Below the pieces are notes generated by a model. It did no database searches, was not told where the DNA came from, and was given only the letters and a program-made list of their open reading frames with translations. A DNA stretch of 64,000 nucleotides from Candidatus Fimousia stercorigallinarum (GTDB taxonomy: Bacteria; Bacillota; Clostridia; Lachnospirales; Lachnospiraceae): positions 1 to 64,000 of the forward strand of contig DVKZ01000029.1 in assembly GCA_018715775.1 (NCBI GenBank), in the 5' to 3' direction. Both the position numbers and the translations under genes were made by a program. Positions 2,170 to 20,181 of the stretch are shown here, in pieces; within the stretch, counting starts at the first letter, position 1; every line of letters begins with the position of its first letter.

Positions 2170-3192
2170 TTAACAGATTCTCGGAAGAAGCTCTCCTCCC
2201 GGCTGCGGCAGCAGTGTTTCCGCGCCAATTTCTGTCGTAACAACTACTTTTCCAGGCATAGACTCTGTAATCTCACCGATCACTGCTGCATTCTTTGAAT
2301 ACTTCCCTTTATGAAGCGTCTCCACCAAGGTATCTGCCTGTTCTGCCGGAGCGATCACAACGAGCGTTCCTTCATTCGCCAAATACAACGGATCCAGCCC
2401 AAGCATGCCGCAGACTCCGCTGACCGCAGGATCAACTGGAATTGCAGAAGAATCCAGCTTTACCCCGACATTACTTTCCGCTGCAATTTCATATAAGACC
2501 GTTCCGACACCGCCACGCGTAGCGTCACGGATAACATGAATATCCTTTGTCGTTTCCAACATCATCTCTACTGTTCCCCAAAGAGGTGCGCAGTCACTCT
2601 GGATATCCGCTTCAATACCGAGATTTTCCCTTGCGAGCAGGATCGTACATCCGTGCCGTCCGATATCACCGGTTACAATGATCTTATCCCCTGGCTTTGC
2701 AAATGCTCCGGAAGTGCTGACACCGTCAACGATCTTCCCAATCCCGGTAGTCGTAATAAACAAGTGATCAACTTGTCCTCTGCCGGCAACTTTCGTATCT
2801 CCGGCTACGATCTTTACCCCTGCTTCTTTTGCTGTTTTTTCCATATAAGAAGCGATCTCCTCCAGTTTATCCATAGAAAATCCTTCTTCAATAATAAAAG
2901 AACAGGTCATATACAATGGTTTTGCTCCCATGCAGGCCAGATCATTAACGGTTCCGCAGATGCTGAGTTTTCCGATATTTCCGCCATTAAATTCATAAGG
3001 AGAGACGATGAAACCATCCGTAGACATAGCGATCTTTCCGTTAACCTCCAATACCGCCGCATCATCGGCCGTAAACTGTGGATTTGAAAAATGGGCTTTA
3101 AATACCTGATCAATAAGTTCTGATGTCTGCTTTCCCCCTGCACCATGTGCCAAAGTCACTATTTTTCCTGATTTCACTTTCATTTCCTCCAT
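2170..3192 (-). CDS. hypE: Hydrogenase maturation protein HypE (carbamoyl dehydratase)
   Basis: LAHGAGGKQTSELI..., DGFIVSPYEFNGGNIGKLSICGTVNDLACMGAKP, DATRGGVGTVLYEIA; ends in the conserved C-terminal PRIC cysteine. Confidence 0.97.
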   Translation of the reverse strand: MEEMKVKSGKIVTLAHGAGGKQTSELIDQVFKAHFSNPQFTADDAAVLEVNGKIAMSTDGFIVSPYEFNGGNIGKLSICGTVNDLACMGAKPLYMTCSFIIEEGFSMDKLEEIASYMEKTAKEAGVKIVAGDTKVAGRGQVDHLFITTTGIGKIVDGVSTSGAFAKPGDKIIVTGDIGRHGCTILLARENLGIEADIQSDCAPLWGTVEMMLETTKDIHVIRDATRGGVGTVLYEIAAESNVGVKLDSSAIPVDPAVSGVCGMLGLDPLYLANEGTLVVIAPAEQADTLVETLHKGKYSKNAAVIGEITESMPGKVVVTTEIGAETLLPQPGGELLPRIC

Positions 3193-4242
3193 TTATTCCA
3201 TTCCATATTGATAATAGGCAGAACAGCTTCCTTCGTTCGAAACCATACATGCACCAATCGGATGCTGCGGGGTACAGCCCCGGCCAAATACTTTGCAGTC
3301 CGATGGTTTACATTTTCCCTGCAGGACATCACCGCATCGGCAGGCCGGATTCGGTTTCCCCTGCATCTTCGGAAGATGGAATTTCAATCTTGCGTCATAT
3401 GCCTCATATGCCTGACGAAGTTTCAGTCCGGACATTGGGATCACGCCAAGACCGCGCCATTCCGAATCACACGGTTCCATTACTTCCTTGATCATCTTCT
3501 GTGCCGCCGGATTTCCTTCCGGACGGACAACGCGCGGATAGCAATTAACAAAATACGATTTTTTCGTCTTGGATTTTTCAATAATCACCGCAAGTGCCGT
3601 CAACAGTTCCTTTGCCGTAAATCCTGCAATGACACCGGAAATCACGCCATCTTGTGCCAGCTTTTTACATTCTTCTTCTCCGGTGATCGCATTGACATGT
3701 CCTGGGTAAAGAAACGCATCTGCACTTCCTTTCAACGCCTGATATGCATTTGGCATCGTTTTATTAGCCGTTAAAATAGAGAAATTCTGCAGGTTCTCCT
3801 CTTTTGCTTTTTTTACTGCAAGGCAGGAAGACGGCGTTGTCGTCTCAAATCCAACCGATAAAAACACAACCTGTTCTTCCGGATGTCCGACCGCATATTC
3901 CACCGCATCAAGCGGGGTATAGACAATCTGTATGTTTGCCCCCTCCGCTCTTGCTCCCGCAAGACTCATTGTTGTTCCTGGAACCCGGATCAAGTCGCCA
4001 AACGTGCAGATCGTAACCTGATGATCCAGCGCAAGCATAACCGCCTCATCAATAAATCCAATCGGTGTCACACAGACCGGGCAGCCGGGACCGGAGATCA
4101 GCTCGATCGTCTCCGGCAGGATCTTCCGTATTCCGAGACGGAAAATTTCATGTGTATGCGTTCCACATACTTCCATAATTCGAAGCTTCGGTCCATCATA
4201 AGACTTGATGATCTCCAAAGCACTTTTCTTTTGTTCAGCCAT
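3193..4242 (-). CDS. hypD: Hydrogenase maturation protein HypD (Fe-S scaffold for Fe(CN)2CO)
   Basis: MEVCGTHTHEIFR, GPGCPVCVTP, GFETTTP, C-terminal Cys-rich CRCGDVLQGKCKPSDCKVFGRGCTP. Confidence 0.97.
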   Translation of the reverse strand: MAEQKKSALEIIKSYDGPKLRIMEVCGTHTHEIFRLGIRKILPETIELISGPGCPVCVTPIGFIDEAVMLALDHQVTICTFGDLIRVPGTTMSLAGARAEGANIQIVYTPLDAVEYAVGHPEEQVVFLSVGFETTTPSSCLAVKKAKEENLQNFSILTANKTMPNAYQALKGSADAFLYPGHVNAITGEEECKKLAQDGVISGVIAGFTAKELLTALAVIIEKSKTKKSYFVNCYPRVVRPEGNPAAQKMIKEVMEPCDSEWRGLGVIPMSGLKLRQAYEAYDARLKFHLPKMQGKPNPACRCGDVLQGKCKPSDCKVFGRGCTPQHPIGACMVSNEGSCSAYYQYGME

Positions 4243-4448
4243 TATAACATCTCCATAATATCATCCGTTTCATTGGTATCATCATCCGTAATTTTCGCAA
4301 TTGCAATTCCTGCATGAACCATGACATAATCACCAGGTTCCAGCTCTTCGATCAGTTCCGCGGAAACCTTTCTCTTTGCCCCGGATGCATCGACAACTGC
4401 CATTCCGTCTTTTACTCCAACTACTTTCGCTGCTAAACCTACACACAT
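4242..4448 (-). CDS. hypC: Hydrogenase maturation chaperone HypC/HybG family
   Basis: MCVGLAAKVVGV...GDYVMVHAGIAIAKI; start reset to the MC start at 4448 (listed ORF starts at 4544); TAATG overlap with hypD. Confidence 0.93.
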   Translation of the reverse strand: MCVGLAAKVVGVKDGMAVVDASGAKRKVSAELIEELEPGDYVMVHAGIAIAKITDDDTNETDDIMEML

Positions 4449-4467
4449 AAATGATATCCTCCTAAAT

Positions 4468-6831
4468 CTATTTCTCTTTTTCTCGTCTCCTACAAAGAGT
4501 ATGCATAGCAAAAACCGCCTGCCCAACAGCAATCCCTCCATCATTTGGCGGGATCAGGCTGTGTTTCAGTACAAGAAAACCCTCCTCGGTCAATCGATGA
4601 TCACAAATCTTTAACAGCAGCTGATTTTGAAAAACACCGCCACTTAATGCACAGGTGGTTATCTTTGTACATTCCGATGCCCGTTTACAGCCATGCACGA
4701 TTTGTTCTGCCAACAAAGCATGGAACAAATAAGCAAGCTCACCGCTGTCCTCTCCTGCAATTTTTTTATCCGTCAACATCCGGACAAGTCGATGCGTCGG
4801 CAAAAGAAACCGCTCTTCTGCCTCTTCTGGATCTGTTAATTTTTTCCATTCCTCTTTGTATTTCTCTTTTATAAAATCAAGTGTACCACAATCCAGGCGT
4901 TCTTCATAGGCTTCTGCCGCAAATTGCAGGGATGTAGAAGCCTCGCCCTCAAATGTCGATGAAAGACGGATTCCAAGAATGGCACTGACCGCATCAAACA
5001 GGCGCCCTGCGCTCGTTGAATCTACGCTGTTGATCCTTCTTCTTCTCATCTGCGCATAGACATTCCGTGTCGTTTCCTCACATAGTCCCAATTTTGCGGC
5101 GATTTCCGCTGCATCATCCTTATATAGATCATTCAACATCGATACTGCAATCCTCCAGCCTTCTTTTGCAGAAAGATCGCCGCCGATCTGTACAAATGGC
5201 ATAATGCTTCCAATCCGTTCAAATCCATCATAAGAAGCTTTCAAAAATTCGCCGCCCCAAATTGTTCCATCGATTCCATAACCGGTGCCGTCAAAAGAGA
5301 CTCCGATCACCGGCTTGCTATGATCATTTTCCGCCATACAAGAAAGAACATGGGCAAAATGATGCTGGACAGGAAGCACTTCGATTCCCTGATCCATTGC
5401 CACTACCGTCGTATTGTATTTCGGATGCATATCACAGGCAACGATCACCGGATCCGTTTCTAACAGTTCTTCCATCCGCCGGATAGACTCTTCTAACGCT
5501 TTTACCGTTCTTAAATCCGCCATATCCCCAACATAAGGAGACGGATAAAATAATTGATTTTTACCGAGACAGAATGTATTTTTCAATTCACCGCCTACCG
5601 CCAGCACCTGTCCTTCAAATGTATCAGAAAGCATCAGCGGCAGAGGAGCATATCCTCTGGAACGCCGGATCATATACGGTTTTCCATCGTAAAAATCCAT
5701 AACCGAATCATCTGCACGAAGGCGGATTTTCCGATTGTGAGATAACATAAGATCGCAAAAAGACGAAAGTTCTTTTATTGCATCTTCATCCGTGCGGCAG
5801 ATCGGTGCTCCGGAAACATTGCCGCTTGTCATAACAAAGCAGTCCGTTGTCATCTCTATCCCATCATTATAATCAAATAAAAGCATCTGGACCGGAGCGT
5901 ATGGAAGCATCACTCCGACTTTCGGGTTCTCTGGTGCCACGGACGGGGCCAGACAACTTTCCTTTTTCTTTTTTAATAAAATGATGGGCTTTTGATGACC
6001 ATCTAAGATCTCCTCGCACTTTTTCGGGACGAAACATTCTCTCTCCACCGTATCCATATTTCTCATCATAACTGCAAATGGCTTCACCGGTCTTGTTTTT
6101 AACATTCGAAGCCGGGCAACCGCTTCTTCGTTCGAAGCATCACAGCACAGATGAAATCCGCCGATTCCTTTTACTGCCACAATCCTGCCATCGATGATCG
6201 CTTTTCGAACGAGTGTGATCGCATCCCTTCCCCGTTCTTTCCTGCCTATCAGATATACTTCCGGTCCGCAGTCATTACAGCAGACAGGCTGCGCATCGTA
6301 TCTTCTCGTTTCTGCATGTGTATATTCATATTCACATTCCGGACACATCGGAAATTCTCCCATACTCGTCCGTACTCTGTCGTATGGCATAGAATCCAGG
6401 ATAGTAAGCCGGGGACCGCATGCCGTACAATTGATGAACGGATGCATGTATCTCCGGTTTTTCGGATCATATAATTCTGCCTGGCATTTTTTGCAGGTTG
6501 CAATATCCGGAGAAACAAAGATGTCTCCTTCTTCCTTTTTACTCTCGATAATGTCAAACCGCTCAAAACTGCGGTATGCAATCGGTGAGATATCTGTTTT
6601 TAAAACAGCAGAACGTTCCGGCGGCTGTTTTTCCAGATCATCCAGAAACCGGTCCAGCTGTTCCTGCGTGCCGGTTGCATAAATTTCCACATAAGAACCT
6701 TTATTGGCAACGCTTCCTGTAATTCCTGCACGGTCTGCGATCCGACTGACAAACGGGCGGAAACCGACGCCCTGAACGATCCCATACACTCTGATCACAT
6801 TTGTTTTATATTCCAATTTCTCCATTGTCAT
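4468..6831 (-). CDS. hypF: Carbamoyltransferase HypF
   Basis: Acylphosphatase domain VIRVYGIVQGVGFRPFV, two CxxC zinc fingers (CKKC..CTAC, CPEC..CNDC), YrdC domain, Kae1-like VQHHFAHVLSCMAEND; start 6831 or 6825, overlapping the upstream gene. Confidence 0.96.
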   Translation of the reverse strand: MTMEKLEYKTNVIRVYGIVQGVGFRPFVSRIADRAGITGSVANKGSYVEIYATGTQEQLDRFLDDLEKQPPERSAVLKTDISPIAYRSFERFDIIESKKEEGDIFVSPDIATCKKCQAELYDPKNRRYMHPFINCTACGPRLTILDSMPYDRVRTSMGEFPMCPECEYEYTHAETRRYDAQPVCCNDCGPEVYLIGRKERGRDAITLVRKAIIDGRIVAVKGIGGFHLCCDASNEEAVARLRMLKTRPVKPFAVMMRNMDTVERECFVPKKCEEILDGHQKPIILLKKKKESCLAPSVAPENPKVGVMLPYAPVQMLLFDYNDGIEMTTDCFVMTSGNVSGAPICRTDEDAIKELSSFCDLMLSHNRKIRLRADDSVMDFYDGKPYMIRRSRGYAPLPLMLSDTFEGQVLAVGGELKNTFCLGKNQLFYPSPYVGDMADLRTVKALEESIRRMEELLETDPVIVACDMHPKYNTTVVAMDQGIEVLPVQHHFAHVLSCMAENDHSKPVIGVSFDGTGYGIDGTIWGGEFLKASYDGFERIGSIMPFVQIGGDLSAKEGWRIAVSMLNDLYKDDAAEIAAKLGLCEETTRNVYAQMRRRRINSVDSTSAGRLFDAVSAILGIRLSSTFEGEASTSLQFAAEAYEERLDCGTLDFIKEKYKEEWKKLTDPEEAEERFLLPTHRLVRMLTDKKIAGEDSGELAYLFHALLAEQIVHGCKRASECTKITTCALSGGVFQNQLLLKICDHRLTEEGFLVLKHSLIPPNDGGIAVGQAVFAMHTLCRRREKEK

Positions 6832-7873
6832 GTTCGTATTCCCCTGATACAGCAAAATGCGGAACATGGATAAATTCACCATCAAACTCTCTTAAAGCAA
6901 GAGAAAGATAAGCATCACCAATGACCGTATCAAATTGCTGTTCTGCCACATAATCCGCAAATCCCTGTTCTGTCTTCAACATAACATCCTGCGGCTGTTT
7001 CCACTCTTTCTTCTGCATAAACCACGTAGCGGCTGTCACTTCGACATCGTGGTATTTTAAAATCTCTTTTCGTATTTCATTCGCCATAACCTGCTGATGG
7101 ATAACTAAAATTTTCTTTCCGTTCAAATCACAGATCTGCTTCTTCAGCTTTTTATCCAAAATCGGATAGCCGGCCTCATATGGAATACCAAAGGTTTTTT
7201 CCATATATTTTGCCGCCTTTAATCCCGACGGCGCGACGACGAGATTTTTCTTGACCGAAGCTGCTTTTTTTAACGTATCCAGTCCATCTCCCATTCCATA
7301 ACAATAAACATGGTCATAGCCTTCTTCTTTTAATACATGACGAATTGTCTCATCGGCAGTCACGCTGCTTAAATTTAAAGGTGTTGCGCCGATCACGCCG
7401 ATGGCATTTTCCTTTTCTTTGACATCGGGATCAACGAATTTCCGGAACAGTTCCATGTAAGTTTCTTCTTCTCCGGTGTCATACAGCTCTGTTCCGGTAC
7501 ATTCTACCGTTATAACCGGAAGCTGGCACCGCTTTTCGGCCATTCGCTTTAATGCCTTAAAGTCCGTTGCGATCACCGCCGGTACAGGAGTACCGATGAT
7601 CGCAGCAAAACTGGCATCCACTTTTTGCGCCGTATCCTTCAATTTCTCAATCAGTCGGTCGTCTCTTCCGAGGATCGCATCCATATCACGAAGACCGGCA
7701 CTAAAAATCGCACTTTTGCGAACAAACCACCGCGGTTCATCGAATCCGCATATATTTCCGGTGCATCCACCGGCATCGCAAATAACCGTAATTCCTCCGA
7801 GATCATATAATACAGAAACCGCACCCGACTGATCCGGTGCAAAAGGAGACAGATATTTTAATAACCCTTTCAT
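6806..7873 (-). CDS. Nitrogenase component-1-like protein (set 1, short subunit)
   Basis: LYDLGGITVICDAGGCTGNICGFDEPRWF, AAIIGTPVPAVIATDF, IGATPLNLS; lies in a NifH-like/component-1 gene cluster; paralogous to 9919..11070. Confidence 0.85.
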   Translation of the reverse strand: MKGLLKYLSPFAPDQSGAVSVLYDLGGITVICDAGGCTGNICGFDEPRWFVRKSAIFSAGLRDMDAILGRDDRLIEKLKDTAQKVDASFAAIIGTPVPAVIATDFKALKRMAEKRCQLPVITVECTGTELYDTGEEETYMELFRKFVDPDVKEKENAIGVIGATPLNLSSVTADETIRHVLKEEGYDHVYCYGMGDGLDTLKKAASVKKNLVVAPSGLKAAKYMEKTFGIPYEAGYPILDKKLKKQICDLNGKKILVIHQQVMANEIRKEILKYHDVEVTAATWFMQKKEWKQPQDVMLKTEQGFADYVAEQQFDTVIGDAYLSLALREFDGEFIHVPHFAVSGEYEHDNGEIGI

Positions 7874-9172
7874 CTACTGTTCCCCCCTTTCCATCGCTTC
7901 TGTCAATTCTTCAAATAAATGGCGTAGTCCGGAATAACCAAACGGCTGGCGCTCCTGATTCCAAGGAACATTGACACAATCCGGATGATAATACTCCGCG
8001 TCTTTTCCGATCGTAATATCCGCAACGCTGTCGGAACAATCATAGTTGAGCATGGACGGCGATAAATTCGTATAAATCTTCGTTTCCGGACTCAATTCAG
8101 CGATTTTCTTAATATAGATAAAATTCTCATCAGATACCGTTCCATAAATTTCCGAAACTTGATGTCCGTATCGCAGCAGCGCAAGCGCCAGTTCAAAGGA
8201 ACCCGCATTCATACACTCTCCGATCGCAAATGTTGTATTCGGATATTTTTCCGTAAAATCATCAACCGCTTTTTTCGCACTGTCATAATATTTCTGATCA
8301 TCAAAGGTTACGCCAAGCGCCCCGCCAAGCAGTTCATACTGTTTATGAATTTTATCAATCTGATACAATCTTGTCAGCTCGATCCCCGGAATTCCAAGCC
8401 GGCGTTTGATATCTTCCGCCGCCAGGCGTGCCTCCGGATTTAAGATCAAATTAAAGTTTGCCTCTGCCATTGACAGATATTCCTCAAAATCTTTGCATCG
8501 TGCGATTTCCAGTATCTTTTTTACGCCAATCTGATGCAAGAGATCATACAGTTCAGAATCATCTAAAAACGGGGCAAATTCTCCGATCAGATTGACGGTT
8601 GTCGGTTTCTTTTTCCGCGGTTCTAACAGAGCATAGATAGATTTTCGTACCTGCGTCATCGGCGGTACCCGTCCTTCTCTGGTCAGAGCATACATATAAC
8701 ACGGAAGTACCGGAATGCCCGCATAATCCGAAGCCTTTCTGCAGACGCGGTCCATATCCGTTCCAAGCAGTGCATCCACACAAGTAATACAGATCATCAC
8801 GGCTGTCGGCGTTTCCTCAAGTGAGTCCGCTACTTCCTTCACCGCTTTTGAAATCTTATTTAAATGTCTACCGGTAACAATATCGGTATCATCCATCAAC
8901 AGATAGAAAAATCGTTCGCTGTATCCGCCGATCTTACTCAGCATCGTCGTATTCCTTCCACAGCACCCCGGTGCAACTAACAGCATAACGGAACCAGGAA
9001 TTGCAAGTCCTGCCCGTTTCACTCCGAACCCCTGTGCTCCCGGGGAGTTAAAGGAGAGGGTTGCCGGAGAACTGTAGATCAGATGTTTGGATGAAAGCAA
9101 CTCATCCGGAATCTGTCCCTTGCCCCTTTTAGCAAGTTCTGCAGCAGTAATATAATATACTTCTCGTTCCAT
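7874..9172 (-). CDS. Nitrogenase component-1-like protein (set 1, long subunit)
   Basis: LLVAPGCCGRNT and AVMICITCVDALLGTDMDRVC, matching component-1 Cys / CxxxxxGxD patterns; adjacent to NifH-like gene. Confidence 0.88.
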   Translation of the reverse strand: MEREVYYITAAELAKRGKGQIPDELLSSKHLIYSSPATLSFNSPGAQGFGVKRAGLAIPGSVMLLVAPGCCGRNTTMLSKIGGYSERFFYLLMDDTDIVTGRHLNKISKAVKEVADSLEETPTAVMICITCVDALLGTDMDRVCRKASDYAGIPVLPCYMYALTREGRVPPMTQVRKSIYALLEPRKKKPTTVNLIGEFAPFLDDSELYDLLHQIGVKKILEIARCKDFEEYLSMAEANFNLILNPEARLAAEDIKRRLGIPGIELTRLYQIDKIHKQYELLGGALGVTFDDQKYYDSAKKAVDDFTEKYPNTTFAIGECMNAGSFELALALLRYGHQVSEIYGTVSDENFIYIKKIAELSPETKIYTNLSPSMLNYDCSDSVADITIGKDAEYYHPDCVNVPWNQERQPFGYSGLRHLFEELTEAMERGEQ

Positions 9173-9925
9173 TTATTCCTCCTCAAGCAGACGTTTTGCC
9201 AGATCCAGATAGATCTTGCTGATTTCCAGGTTCGGATTTCCTTCGATCACTGTTTTCCCCTGATCTTCATAACGGATAATATCATCGCTTCTTGGGATAT
9301 CGGCAATGATCTCAAGATTACTGTTTTTGGCAAACTCTTCTACCTTTTTTCTTTCATTTTCTACATTTCTTCTATTTAAAATAATCCCTTTTACGGTTGC
9401 ATATCCACGGTCTTCAAAATTATCCACCGCCGTTTTAATATTGTTGGCTGCATATAATGCCATCTTTTCGCCGGAAGTAACGATCAGAATCTCATTGGCA
9501 TATCCTTCCCGGATAGGAGCAGCAAAACCGCCGCAGACAACATCCCCGAGGACGTCATATAAGACAACATCCGGTTTATATGTCTCAAACAATTCGAGAT
9601 CCTCTAACAGGCTGAATGTCGTAATGATCCCGCGTCCCGCACAGCCAAGTCCTGGCGTCGGTCCGCCGGTTTCAATACACAAGACGCCTCCAAATCCTTC
9701 TTTCGCAATCTGTTCAATTTCTTCCGGTTCTTCATCAAACTCCCGCAGATAATTCATTACCGGTCTGACCGGATTTCCACCGAGCAAGTTGATCGTTGAA
9801 TCCGCTTTCGGATCACAGCCGATCTGGATTACTTTTTTTCCAAGGCTTGCAAATGCTGCAGCCAGATTTCCGGTCGTCGTTGACTTTCCGATACCGCCTT
9901 TTCCATATATCGCAAGTTTTAACAT
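9173..9925 (-). CDS. NifH-like nitrogenase iron-protein family ATPase (set 1)
   Basis: [10 protein letters not shown]-loop, [17 protein letters not shown] and [17 protein letters not shown] Fe-S ligand motifs. Confidence 0.96.
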
Positions 9926-11070
9926 GATGGTTCCTCCATATAAGTTAACGTTCTATTCACCAGATCAGGATTTTGATCATCATAAATCCTCCCTGAAAAT
10001 GCCTCATGCGGCAGATCATAAAAATCCATCTGCCCGCATAATGCACGATAAAGCGGATCCGCAATCACACCATCCGCATATTTCAACTGTTCAATCAGAT
10101 CATCTTCCTCCGGGGTGTACCGATCGCCTTCTCGTAATATCTCTGTAATCGTATCCAGTGGCGTCAGGACCTGAATATCGAGATCATATTCCATCTCAAT
10201 TGCCGTTGCCAACGATGTGGCAAATACGCTTTCCCCAATTAGGCACAATCTCTTTATTTTCCCCTTCCCTGCTTTTTTTGCTGCATAAAGAGACTGACCA
10301 TTTTTTGCTGTTCGATCTAACAGTCCGGCCAGATAATCCGCATAGTCTTTTCCAAACGGAACACCGACTACATAGGGAATTCCAAAACGTTCTTCCATCA
10401 GTCTGGCCGCCGCAATGCCTCCATAGGAAATAACCAGATTTACATGTGCTTTGGATGCCTGTTTGATCTCCTCCAAAGAGCTTCCCATCGCAAAACAACT
10501 GTTTACACTCCACCCTTGTTTCGTAAGCCACGTCCGAATTGAATCAATACTGCCATTTAAGGAAAAATCCAGCGGCGTCGCACCGATAATATTGACCGAC
10601 GGCAGTTTGGTTTGTTCCATCTGATCTGTGCAAAATCGATCCACAATCTTATGAAAAGCCATGGAAATTCCTTCTGTATAATTTCGCATGCCATTTGCAG
10701 CAAATCCAAACGCCGGAATCCCGGTTTCTGCCTCCACGATCATGGCGATCGCTTCCAGATCCGTCCCGATCATATAGGGAATCGGCGCACCGACGATCGC
10801 AATAAATTCCGGATGTAACTTCTCCGCTGTTGTAAGAATGTCACGGATCAGTTTTTCATCATCACCCATGATTGCTTCCATTTCCGAGATTGCTGAGATA
10901 AAGATCATACTGTCAATATCATACCATCTCGGTTCATCGTGCGTTGTATATGTTGAATTACATCCCGATGCATCATGCATCACAACCATTCCGCCTAATT
11001 CATACAGTGCGGAACAAATGCCGAATTCATCAGATGAATATGTAGAAATTAATCCTGCTACCTGTCTCAT
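9919..11070 (-). CDS. Nitrogenase component-1-like protein (set 2, short subunit)
   Basis: [81 protein letters not shown]; shares motifs with 6806..7873. Confidence 0.86.
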
Positions 11071-12395
11071 ATGCAGCTCTCACACCCGTAACCCTTTCTC
11101 TGAATGATCTCCTTCCTTGGTTTTTCATTCAGATATGCATCTATCATCAGTTCCGCAATCTGGCGGATGCCGTCATATCCAAACAGTCCGCCGCTTTCCA
11201 CAACATTGACAAAATGATCTGTCCCGGTAAAATACGCCGCTTTCTGACCGACCGCCAAGATCGTTTCATCTCGATGCCGTTTCAGATACCGCATATTTGG
11301 CTGGTTCGTGGCATAAATGTCAATATCCGGAAAATGTTCTTTCATCCAAAGAAAATCCTCCCGTTCTTCCGGTAAGAATGTATCTGCAAAAATTTCTGTT
11401 ACATGAAATCCATGCTGCAAAAGCATCTTTGTAAAACTCAAGATTCGAAATGTAAACGTATAATCGACAGCGATCTTCGTATTGCCGATACACTGTAAAG
11501 CCCTTTCTAATGCTGCTTCTGCCGCTTTTCGGAATCCACGGACATCCGGATGTACCATTCCAAGCATATCCGCTAATCTACAATAATTTTGCTCTAATTC
11601 ATCCATATCAAACACAAAAGGAAGATAACGATACTCCTGTCCGATCCGCTTTTTCAGATCCTGTGCTGCCGGAATCGCGATCGGTTCATAGACCAGGTTC
11701 AATTTGGCTTGTGCCATATCCAGATAATCATCAAATGTCCGGCACCAGTTCAGCATTTGCAGTTCATATCCTGCCTGCCGAAGGATCATGACCAATTCGG
11801 AGGAAGCTGATATTTCCAGATTGCTTCCGATCAGATTGATTTTTTTCGGATTCTTTTCTTTTTCCTCTAACAGACTAAAAAGCTGAAGACGCATCTTCTG
11901 ATCAGGAGTCAGTCCGCTCTTTCGAAGCGTCGGGATCATGTAACAGTCCATAAATCGAATATCCGGATACTTTTCTCTTAATGTATCAAATACGAGCTGC
12001 TGATTATAAGCCAGAAAGAAATGCTGACAGCTGATAAATAACAAAATCGCTTTCGGACGATACGGAAGCTTATCCAGTATGTCCGCCACACCGTTAATCA
12101 TCAGATTTTCCACAGAACCATCAATGACATTTTCTTCACGGATGATGATCGACGAATACCGGTCTAACGCTCCCATTTCAGCAGCAGTTAACACAACACC
12201 ACGCAGACAGCCTTGTGCACAAACAAAAATCTGATGCGATTCCGGGATCAGCATTCCCGTATGAACAATATTCCACGTTCCTCTCGCAGGAGAACTGTAT
12301 TCCAGTCCCTGCTCAAAAGGAGCCGGAAAAAAAGCTTCCCTGATTTTTCTTTTTGCACCGGAAGTATTCTCTTCCCGTCTAAGTCTTGTTAACAT
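11067..12395 (-). CDS. Nitrogenase component-1-like protein (set 2, long subunit)
   Basis: LEYSSPA, IFVCAQGCLRG, AILLFISCQHFF, INLIG; ATGA overlap with 9919..11070; paralogous in layout to 7874..9172. Confidence 0.83.
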   Translation of the reverse strand: MLTRLRREENTSGAKRKIREAFFPAPFEQGLEYSSPARGTWNIVHTGMLIPESHQIFVCAQGCLRGVVLTAAEMGALDRYSSIIIREENVIDGSVENLMINGVADILDKLPYRPKAILLFISCQHFFLAYNQQLVFDTLREKYPDIRFMDCYMIPTLRKSGLTPDQKMRLQLFSLLEEKEKNPKKINLIGSNLEISASSELVMILRQAGYELQMLNWCRTFDDYLDMAQAKLNLVYEPIAIPAAQDLKKRIGQEYRYLPFVFDMDELEQNYCRLADMLGMVHPDVRGFRKAAEAALERALQCIGNTKIAVDYTFTFRILSFTKMLLQHGFHVTEIFADTFLPEEREDFLWMKEHFPDIDIYATNQPNMRYLKRHRDETILAVGQKAAYFTGTDHFVNVVESGGLFGYDGIRQIAELMIDAYLNEKPRKEIIQRKGYGCESCI

Positions 12396-12407
12396 CTCAA
12401 ATCTCCT

Positions 12408-13166
12408 TTATTGCTCATCCAATTGTTTTAGGATCTGTTTTGCAAGCGCCCGGTACTGTTTGGCCATACGGCTGTCCGGAAATGCTTCCAATACCGTTTT
12501 CTTCAACAATTCCGCTTCCTGCACCGTTTCAGAAAAATCCAGCTCCCCGAGAATTGATGTATGAAGTTCGTCACTCAATTCTTTCACTTTTGCATATTCG
12601 TCTTTGACATTCCTTTTATTCAGGATCAATCCGCCGAGTCCTGCATATCCGCGTCCTTTAAAGTTATCAATTGCCATTGCGATATTGGCTGCTGCATAAA
12701 TGGACATATTTTCACCGGACGTAACGATAAACACCTGATCGGCATACCCGGATCGCATCGGCATCGAAAACCCGCCGCACACGACGTCTCCCAACACATC
12801 ATACAAAACGATGTCCGGCTGATAAATCTCATATGCGCCTTTCTCCTTCAGTTTTTCCAATGCGGTAATAATTCCGCGGCCGGCACATCCAAGCCCCGGG
12901 ATCGGTCCACCGGCTTCCACACAGACAACACCGCCATATCCAATCTTCACGACCTCATCCAATTCAAACATCTGCTGCTTTTTACGAACGACCTCTAATA
13001 CGGTAGGAAGCGGCTCTCCATGCCGTAAGGCGATTGTCGAATCCGCCTTCGGATCACATCCGATCTGCATCACCTTTCTTCCCTGTTCTGCAAAAGCAGC
13101 AGAAAGATTTGATACGATCGTCGATTTCCCGATGCCTCCCTTTCCATAAATAGCCAGTTTTTTCAT
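12408..13166 (-). CDS. NifH-like nitrogenase iron-protein family ATPase (set 2)
   Basis: [43 protein letters not shown]. Confidence 0.96.
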
Positions 13167-13177
13167 AACGATCCTCC

Positions 13178-13441
13178 TTATTTTTTGCCAGACGGAAGCT
13201 TCGAATACATCGTTTTCGCACTGACACCAGAAATTTTCCCGAGTTTTCCAGCAATCTGATTAATGACATCCGTCGGCGCATCGATCGCAATGCTGATAAT
13301 ATTCAGATTCTTTTCTCGATAAGGAAGTCCCATTCTTCCAAGAATATACATGCCATAATCGTGCAAGATTTCATTTACATCACCTGTGGCATCAACATCC
13401 TCTACTATGATACCGATAATTGCAATTCTTGTTTCCATCAT
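13178..13441 (-). CDS. TM1266-like putative iron-only hydrogenase system regulator (ACT-like small protein)
   Basis: [77 protein letters not shown] matches the TM1266 family pattern. Confidence 0.85.
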
Positions 13442-13448
13442 ACACTCC

Positions 13449-13632
13449 TTTTATAAAATAAAAAAACCGCATCTTTAAGATAAAGATGCAGTAATCGACA
13501 TTTCTATACGTCCTCTGATCACAAGATTTTAACTGGATAAAATAATGTAAAAAGATAGACGATTCCCTGTTAAAAACGCATCTTTAATCTCAATGATCAG
13601 TTATCATCCGATAACTGAAAATTTTAATCTCA
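13449..13632 (-). promoter_or_regulatory. 5' leader of the nitrogenase-like/hyp operon with candidate attenuator (unclassified riboswitch-like RNA)
   Basis: Terminator stem 13469-13477/13481-13489 with T-tract 13460-13466 just before the RBS; the 11-nt sequence cgcatctttaa occurs at 13468-13478 and again at 13577-13587, giving an alternative partner for the terminator 5' arm; upstream hairpin 13598-13605/13610-13617. Confidence 0.72.
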
Positions 13633-13633
13633 G

Positions 13634-13661
13634 ATTATAATTTATGATAGCATATTTTCAA
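13634..13661 (-). promoter_or_regulatory. Sigma-A type promoter, TTGAAA-N16-TATAAT
   Basis: Reverse complement of tttcaa 13656-13661 and attata 13634-13639. Confidence 0.75.
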
Positions 13662-13691
13662 AAAAAGGGCAATGCAATTATATACAAATGG

Positions 13692-18327: not shown

Positions 18328-19254
18328 TTATTTCAAGAAACCGCTGATAATCTGTTCCTCGGCTTCTTCCTCCGTCAAACCTAAGGTCATCAGTTTCATA
18401 ATCTGTTCGCCGGCAATCTTTCCGATCGCAGCTTCGTGGATCAGGGCAGCATCCAGATCGTTCGCTTCCAACTGCGGAACAGCAAGGATTCTTGCATCTC
18501 CCATGATGATCGCATCACATTCTGTATGTCCGCTGCAAGGAGCATTTCCGGTAACTTTGGCATCAAATTTCTGATAAGACTGATCTTTTGCTACCGATCT
18601 GGAAATGACATCTGCATTTGCTCCTTCTCCGTTTAATTTTACATCATAAATACTTTCTGCATACTGGTCTCCATGGGTCATCAGGCGTTCACGGATCACA
18701 AGAGAAGCTCCTGCATCCAGTTCCGCCTTTGTCGTGCGGACTGTTGAGTCAACTCCTTTAATCTGTACCATTTCCATCTCCATGGAACTTCCTTCTTCCA
18801 TATACACTTCTGTTCCCGGATTCAGTATACGCTTTCCTTTTCCATCTCCGGAACCATAATGTTTTTCTACATATTTTACTTTTGCATTTTTTCCAACATA
18901 AAAACGGTGAATACCGTCATGTTCAGAATCCTGACTTCCGCAGTTATCGATTCCACATCCGGCAACAATCATAACATCGCTGTCTTCCCCGATGTAAAAA
19001 TCATTATATACCATTTCTTTCAGACCGCTTTTGCTTAAAACAACCGGAATATGAACACTTTCATTTTTTGTTCCCGGTTTAATCTTAATATCGATCCCGC
19101 TGACATCTTCCTTAGAAATGATATCGATATTCGCTGTTGTCTGTCTTCCTGCCATGCCACTGTTGGCACGGATGTTATAAGCTCCTTCCGGTACGGAATG
19201 AAGATCGGCTACCTCTCTTAAGAGTCTTTTTTGAATCTCATCAATCTTGATCAT
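18328..19254 (-). CDS. SufB/SufD-like Fe-S assembly protein (minimal SUF, SmsB-like)
   Basis: ADVISRSVAKDQSYQKFDAKVTGNAPCSGHTECDAIIMGDARILAVPQLEANDLDAALIHEAAIGKI is typical of SufB/D beta-helix. Confidence 0.9.
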   Translation of the reverse strand: MIKIDEIQKRLLREVADLHSVPEGAYNIRANSGMAGRQTTANIDIISKEDVSGIDIKIKPGTKNESVHIPVVLSKSGLKEMVYNDFYIGEDSDVMIVAGCGIDNCGSQDSEHDGIHRFYVGKNAKVKYVEKHYGSGDGKGKRILNPGTEVYMEEGSSMEMEMVQIKGVDSTVRTTKAELDAGASLVIRERLMTHGDQYAESIYDVKLNGEGANADVISRSVAKDQSYQKFDAKVTGNAPCSGHTECDAIIMGDARILAVPQLEANDLDAALIHEAAIGKIAGEQIMKLMTLGLTEEEAEEQIISGFLK

Positions 19255-19997
19255 GCCTGCACTCCTCCCTGCTGAAATTTATTACATACATTAACTGCTG
19301 AAGACGTTCCAAGAAGCGTTGGTAAAATTTCTTCTTTTGGTCCATGGTTCACGATCTGTCCATCTGCAATCACAACGATTTCATCTGCGATATTTAAAAT
19401 CCGTTCCTGATGGGAAATAATTAAAATGGAACCATCCTGGTTCTTCTCCTGCATTCTTTCAAATACCTGAATCAAATTCTGGAAACTCCATAAATCAATT
19501 CCCGCTTCCGGTTCATCAAAAATGGAAAGCTGTGTTCCTCTTGCGAGAACTGTTGCAATCTCAATTCGTTTTAATTCCCCACCGGATAAGCTGGCATTTA
19601 CTTCCCGGTTAATATAGTCCTTTGCACAAAGTCCGACTTCGGATAAATACTTGCATGCGTCTGCCGGTGAAAGATTTTTATTCGCCGCAATACGGATCAG
19701 ATCCAGTACCTGGATGCCTTTGAAACGAACCGGCTGCTGAAAAGCAAAGCTGATCCCCATATTGGCTCTTTCTGTAATCGTCTTATTCGTAATATCTTCA
19801 CCATTGAAGAAAATCTGTCCGGAAGTCGGCTGTTTGATCCCTGCGATCAGTTTTGCCAATGTGGACTTTCCGCCTCCGTTTGGTCCTGTGATCACTACAA
19901 ATTTATTTTCATCAATAGTAAGACTTAAATCTTTGATGATCTCTTTTTGTCCGAGTTCATCTAACACATCATAGGATATATTCTTTAACTCTAACAT
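19251..19997 (-). CDS. SufC-like Fe-S assembly ATPase (minimal SUF, SmsC-like)
   Basis: GPNGGGKSTLAK Walker A, LSGGELKRIEIA signature, LSIFDEPEAGID; start reset to MLELKNISYD at 19997. Confidence 0.92.
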   Translation of the reverse strand: MLELKNISYDVLDELGQKEIIKDLSLTIDENKFVVITGPNGGGKSTLAKLIAGIKQPTSGQIFFNGEDITNKTITERANMGISFAFQQPVRFKGIQVLDLIRIAANKNLSPADACKYLSEVGLCAKDYINREVNASLSGGELKRIEIATVLARGTQLSIFDEPEAGIDLWSFQNLIQVFERMQEKNQDGSILIISHQERILNIADEIVVIADGQIVNHGPKEEILPTLLGTSSAVNVCNKFQQGGVQA

Positions 19998-20181
19998 AGT
20001 TCCTCCAATTTTTATCGTATTGTTTGCCAAATTTAATACAATATATTGCATATTGGGCTTAAATAACCCGTATCCATACCAATTAATTATGATTACCACA
20101 CCAATTTTAAAGCATTTGAAGCTTAAAATCAACAATAAAAAGAAAGTTTCGAAAGTTTCCAATCATTTTTTACCTTCTATT

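Follow-up and report, generated by a model that had tools for sequence, protein, structure and literature searches.

The window analyzed here, a 64,000-nucleotide stretch of DNA from Candidatus Fimousia stercorigallinarum, carries on its minus strand an operon that opens with a TM1266-family gene, continues with a series of nitrogenase-like genes, and ends with hyp-type genes (Table 1). The leader is preceded by a beta-phosphoglucomutase gene with what is probably its terminator. Farther out, some 5 kb upstream of the operon, two minus-strand genes at 18328-20162, for an ABC-type ATPase and a neighboring protein, resemble by sequence SufC and SufB/D of Fe-S cluster assembly. The original prediction read the leader as an unclassified riboswitch-like element that switches between a terminator and an antiterminator and controls the TM1266 operon. 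Direct reading of the window found all the sequence elements it named at the minus-strand coordinates it gave, and the terminator/antiterminator design is supported below by hairpin covariation, a match between the antiterminator strand and its own terminator arm, and an intrinsic terminator. The 173-nt leader has a folding energy of -47.5 kcal/mol, against a mean of -31.2 for shuffled sequences (z = -4.5), and beats 200 of 200 dinucleotide shuffles. It stands well above chance because its hairpin covaries in relatives and because its antiterminator strand fits its own terminator arm best. The attenuator in the window leader is real.

Table 1. Features of the leader and its operon in the window
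Feature	Position	Strand	Remark
-35 TTGCCC of the likelier promoter	13667..13672	-	17-nt spacer; promoter scan and relatives
TTGAAA, -35 of the original prediction	13661-13656	-	direct reading
Extended -10 TGcTATCAT (hexamer 13649-13644)	13644..13652	-	same place as TGgTATCAT in L036
TATAAT, -10 of the original prediction, probably not the promoter	13639-13634	-	overlaps hairpin 5' strand
Sensor hairpin	13637-13578	-	covariance model R1, 40.2 bits, E = 1e-7 in 0.9 Mb
Outer pairs C13633-G13582 and U13632-A13583	13632..13633	-	invariant, 42/42 rows
P1 5' strand GAUU, pairs with 13589-13586	13626..13629	-	covarying helix
P1 3' strand GAUU	13586..13589	-	covarying helix
CAGTTATC-GGAT-GATAACTG hairpin (RNA CAGUUAUC-GGAU-GAUAACUG)	13617-13598	-	extension of loop stem; variable
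Repeat TTAAAGATGCG	13587-13577	-	direct reading
Antiterminator strand UAAAGAUGC	13578..13586	-	overlaps hairpin 3' end
Terminator 5' arm GCAUCUUUA (GCATCTTTA), alternative partner of 13586-13578	13481..13489	-	
Intrinsic terminator, 12-pair stem, 3-nt loop, then T-run	13466..13492	-	
RBS AAAAGGAG after T-run		-	direct reading
TM1266-family protein, first gene	13178..13441	-	TIGR03959, 114.7 bits (cut-off 60.8); start probably second ATG, 13438
NifH-like protein 1, next in operon	12408..13166	-	
NifD/K-like protein (PF00148)	11067..12395	-	query for homologous operons
Further NifK-, NifH-, NifD-, and NifK-like genes	6806..11070	-	
HypF, then HypC-, HypD-, and HypE-like genes	2170..6885	-	HypF by hmmscan; others named from sequence and homology

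Which parts of the leader are conserved? A search of 397 family genomes turned up homologous operons in 42, and sequence was retrieved for 80 named loci. The homologous leaders carry AUCUGAGAUUGAAAU-N-AUUGAGAUUGAAGAUGCG just after an extended -10, together with a terminator 5' arm complementary to GAUGCG. Their consensus is a 5'-terminal hairpin, YCUGA-N4-RAA(A)...UUGA-N4'-RAAG, in which a C-G and a U-A pair are followed by a tandem G.A-type mismatch, a 4-bp helix (P1), a second tandem G.A-type mismatch, two A-U pairs, and a variable stem-loop. The core, about 39 nt long, consists of one symmetric hairpin; the resemblance between its two strands (YUGA-N4-RAA/G) makes the element nearly two-fold symmetric. 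Of the four mismatch pairs, two are A.A rather than A.G in the window, a change shared by about one aligned row in four. The original prediction overlooked this sensor, which appears in the window as two TGAGATTAAA-type repeats around 13633-13622 and 13593-13582. The CAGTTATC hairpin that it had singled out instead proves to be an extension of the loop stem, common only to locus L036, where it reads AGCUGUAA/UUACAGCU.

The two sides of P1 change together across operons. Once more distant operons are compared, the N4/N4' combinations are GAUU/GAUU, GGUC/GAUC, CAUC/GAUG, UAUC/GAUA, CGUC/GACG, CGCC/GGCG, CACC/GGUG, and UACC/GGUA. In all, 98.2% of P1 cells are paired, and the covariation score is 0.835, compared with 0.406 for shuffled alignments and 0.07-0.19 when the partner strand is slid. 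The first alignment was selected by a rule requiring at least three of the four P1 pairs, and we therefore reran the pattern with P1 left free: four of four positions paired in 53 of 64 instances, three in 10, and none in 1. RNAalifold independently gave the identical nine pairs. The leader alignment suggested as a check by the original prediction thus favors a covarying helix, but not the two long-range pairings proposed alongside it, CTGATCA/TGATCAG and TTTTAAC/GTTAAAA. Both are present in the window; their downstream partners are absent in L036, the closest relative, so they are probably incidental. As judged from these alignments, the 5' UTR contains a conserved, covarying, aptamer-like core. 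Evidence from the window by itself would be compatible with a constitutive attenuator that has no sensor, or with a plain terminator accompanied by accidental repeats. Conservation refutes such a reading, to which we give hardly any weight, since the core recurs across many families of the class, as well as Lentisphaerota, and in one gene context only.

An intrinsic terminator precedes the first gene. The stem foreseen by the original prediction is there, but its 12 pairs exceed the 9 bp (13489-13469) first assigned to it. The antiterminator 5' strand is made up of the hairpin's last nucleotides, RAAG, and the 5-9 nt that follow. Because this strand starts within the hairpin, hairpin and antiterminator are mutually exclusive. 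Among 58 leaders with a recognized terminator, the antiterminator strand pairs with its own terminator arm at a mean of -8.9 kcal/mol, versus -6.3 when arms are swapped (0 of 5,000 permutations). Leaders without GATGYG are similar (-7.6 with their own arm versus -5.2 swapped), but a few leaders are without a good antiterminator match. Of 94 pattern matches, which include some chance ones, 62 are followed by a terminator. By sequence, then, a strand upstream of the terminator is complementary to the terminator's 5' arm and covaries with it, as in an attenuator. Leader-peptide or tRNA (T-box) attenuation would share the terminator/antiterminator design, but is scarcely credible here: no T-box leader model matches in the window, the covarying hairpin lies within a few nucleotides of the predicted start, and base pairs rather than codons are conserved.

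How could such a leader switch? Equilibrium folding lets core and terminator form together, with the terminator strongly favored over the antiterminator. Since the terminator always wins at equilibrium, any switching must be kinetic and take place during transcription. The energy of the core is near zero in six of eight leaders computed (about +1 to -2 kcal/mol), two of the eight, with long loop extensions, having been scored without the extension stem. With a core so close to zero energy in most leaders, something has to hold the hairpin.

The position of the promoter also bears on the hairpin. The original prediction placed the promoter at TTGAAA/TATAAT, which is probably about 10 nt too far downstream. 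This TATAAT is the less likely -10 because its end abuts CUGA, so that transcription would start inside the hairpin and its 5' strand would be lost. Relatives usually have an extended -10, TGnTAtnaT, with a -35 at 16-18 nt, mostly ending 8-15 nt before CUGA. The combination TGcTATCAT/TTGCCC fits these relatives better and is probably the promoter, with a predicted transcription start near 13637.

Where else does the element occur? Covariance model R1 was searched, blind to gene content, against 392 genomes of the class and a further order. Model matches and operon loci together gave 67 strong instances, and all 67 lie directly before one of five genes: TM1266 (40), HydE (11), a FecCD transporter gene (7), HydG (6), or HydF (3). 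The motif also stands directly after TM1266 in 20 instances, and both before and after it in L065, L067, and G831; several of the intercistronic copies after TM1266 have no recognizable promoter. The element marks a whole H-cluster-maturation regulon, a point that had escaped the original prediction. In the window's own genome, we found no second credible copy, a 23-bit match there falling in an ORF, and no motif upstream of the HydE and HydF genes. The leader element is thus a single copy of an RNA hairpin that is widespread, seems not to have been described before, and probably controls whether transcription of its operon goes ahead. Model matches in L117 (inside an ORF), L134, L136-L138, L140-L142, L144-L146, L148, and L183 were set aside as chance; they are weak and/or lie within coding sequence or without gene context.

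TM1266 has long been annotated only as a putative regulator of the iron-only hydrogenase system. It has a ferredoxin/ACT-like fold, whose nearest structure after its own crystal structure (2NZC) is the nickel-sensing C-terminal domain of NikR, and it is without NikR's DNA-binding part. Could the element then act as DNA, as an operator close to the promoter, and not as an RNA structure? It does lie just downstream of the -10 in many leaders and offers two similar half-sites, and TM1266 resembles the sensor domain of a DNA-binding regulator. However, a protein with no DNA-binding domain, the compensatory base-pair changes in P1, the fit of the 3' half to its own terminator arm, and the roughly 20 intercistronic copies, several of them promoterless, make an operator very improbable.

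Is TM1266 the factor that holds the hairpin? The original prediction named it as a candidate effector, and its distribution lends support: it is encoded in 20 of 20 credible motif genomes versus 12 of 30 controls (Fisher p = 8e-6), where the motif genomes are 21 picked by model match less G994, whose match looks like chance, and where genome tallies are lower bounds given MAG sequences, small control sets, and few candidates scored per genome. Among HydG-bearing genomes, TM1266 is encoded by all 14 that carry the motif and by 10 of the 16 that do not (p = 0.02). Six motif genomes do not have HydG, so the motif tracks TM1266 more closely than it tracks HydG; HydE was present in all eight HydG-less genomes tested. 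Twelve control genomes have TM1266 but no model match, and about four of these contain variant hairpins, with one or two more holding weak candidates. Because TM1266 is part of the same gene set, co-occurrence cannot tell a regulator from a co-regulated gene, and TM1266 could equally be the latter. We nevertheless consider it the most likely effector to bind the hairpin, a judgment we would put at about even.

The main rival is a true riboswitch, in which the hairpin would itself bind a metal ion (e.g., Fe2+) or a compound from the synthesis of the H-cluster or another organometallic cofactor, and TM1266 would be only a regulated gene. A compact conserved core, a covarying helix, and an expression platform all suit a riboswitch. 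So do copies of the motif directly before HydE, HydG, HydF, and transporter genes with no adjoining TM1266, and a FecCD-type transporter is suggestive of metal-chelate import. Yet TM1266 occurs in all 20 motif genomes, even where it is unlinked to the motif (G715, G767, G684, and G670), and HydG-bearing genomes without TM1266 are also without the motif. Moreover, for a metabolite aptamer the core would be unusually small, and its two-fold symmetry suits a protein dimer. We regard a riboswitch as a serious possibility, though well short of an even chance.

We regard a protein-bound attenuator as the best explanation. A small, nearly two-fold symmetric hairpin would form at the 5' end of the transcript or, in other operons, between genes. 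When the effector is absent, the marginally stable hairpin would give way during transcription to the antiterminator, and the operon would be read. When the effector is bound, the hairpin would be held and the antiterminator strand occupied, so that the terminator could form and transcription would stop. From the geometry of the leader, binding probably means termination, turning the operon off. The sequences themselves establish the RNA class, its covariation, the mutual exclusion of hairpin and antiterminator, and the association with particular genes. The full model, in which this new class of RNA attenuates transcription, the effector-bound hairpin blocks the antiterminator, and TM1266 is the likeliest effector, seems to us an evenly balanced proposition. 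More tentatively, and at somewhat less than even, we suggest that TM1266 proteins are new RNA-binding attenuation regulators in which a NikR-type sensor domain grips a two-fold symmetric, G.A-flanked hairpin. They would tie H-cluster maturation, and a nitrogenase-like pathway perhaps replacing HydG, to an organometallic or metal signal.

The proposed layout resembles PyrR attenuation. In the pyr operon of Bacillus subtilis, PyrR attenuators lie in the leader and between genes, the PyrR-bound hairpin acts as an anti-antiterminator, and binding leads to termination. The hairpins described here are likewise found in leaders and between genes around the regulator gene, 40 before and 20 after TM1266, with a second hairpin after that gene in some operons; they too overlap the antiterminator, and binding would again mean termination. 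However, the hairpin does not match the consensus for the binding loop of PyrR; TM1266, with its ACT-like fold, would stand in place of a phosphoribosyltransferase homologue as regulator; and the genes serve H-cluster and nitrogenase-like cofactor assembly. Since the protein family is TM1266 and not PyrR, the leader may work like PyrR attenuation without being a member of it. The RAT antiterminators bound by BglG, LicT, and SacY overlap the 5' arm of a terminator, and their binding leads to antitermination. Like RAT, the element is a short hairpin whose internal loops are non-Watson-Crick and would suit a dimeric protein, and it competes near a terminator. Unlike RAT, it is separate from the terminator, about 90 nt upstream of it, and its competitor is the antiterminator; sequence and protein family differ as well.

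Is the RNA already known? Its 5'-UTR position, terminator-based platform, and metal-enzyme genes recall metal and cofactor riboswitches such as NiCo and the Moco candidate, but it is a single symmetric hairpin. The original prediction recognized no known riboswitch, and Rfam 15 agrees: no family reaches its gathering threshold in the window's leader or at the other loci searched, the only match being an unrelated T-box elsewhere in L068. At relaxed thresholds, matches to trpB, CRISPR-DR50, and others (E of 0.18 or worse) are chance. The biochemistry of [FeFe]-hydrogenase maturation is well studied. We found neither RNA-level control of this maturation, nor a stated mechanism for TM1266, nor an RNA element tied to TM1266 or H-cluster maturation in the open literature searched. 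The RNA-discovery surveys consulted, which do not include the 2017 survey of 224 candidate RNAs, do not mention the motif. By Rfam 15 and this literature, the element is most aptly described as a new RNA class within a known kind, that of attenuators or riboswitch-like RNAs. A cis-regulatory candidate also tied to nitrogenase-type cofactor synthesis is the nifV candidate RNA; as described, it is confined to Geobacter nifV, has an intricate structure involving the Shine-Dalgarno sequence, and bears no visible relation to the leader hairpin (PMC11109978). As a concrete and testable target, the RNA described here combines a short hairpin with a defined regulon found in many families of Clostridia and in Lentisphaerota. 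Work on it would reveal the role of TM1266 and the signal that cells read for making H-clusters. The RNA also connects a nitrogenase-like operon, widespread in gut anaerobes, with an H-cluster control circuit.

Further variants of the hairpin occur upstream of TM1266 in L172, L157, L162, and L179 and upstream of NifH1 in L033, with P1 of UUGC/GCAA or UUAC/GUAA and the A-U pair beside the mismatch changed to G-C. Because such variants occur in genomes and operons scored as motif-less, the RNA class extends beyond model R1. A shorter variant, AUCUGACCAUAAGG-N-CCUGAAGGGGAAGACAAGUGA, is found at a similar upstream position in L039, L041, L047, L049-L054, L059, and L071 (e.g., L050:2817). Model R1 misses it, and no TM1266 adjoins NifH in these operons; in L050, the gene that follows encodes a HydF-like GTPase. 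Hairpins of the same pattern also lie over apparent start codons after NifK (L078:7357, L080:7529, L081:7290, L100:7688, and L106:7739), where in some loci the gene encodes a substrate-binding protein. As read from their placement, these would suit translational control by the same element.

Other loci join TM1266 directly to transport. At L065:2120-3193, a FecE-type ABC ATPase carries a C-terminal TM1266 fusion, with similar fusions in L063, L066, L067, L078, L093, and L098. The fusion adjoins a FecCD permease, a HydE-like radical-SAM protein, and NifHDK-like genes; a metal complex might be imported at these loci and sensed by that TM1266 domain.

Finally, HydG is present in 3 of 41 genomes with a nitrogenase-like operon of the type at 2170-13441 in the window versus 5 of 12 without it (p = 0.01). 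In the window's genus, the three operon carriers have no HydG, and HydG is present in one of two non-carriers. Both HydE and HydF occur in all eight of the HydG-less genomes tested. Given the HypF and HypC/D/E-like genes of the operon, a HydG-independent route to the H-cluster is possible.
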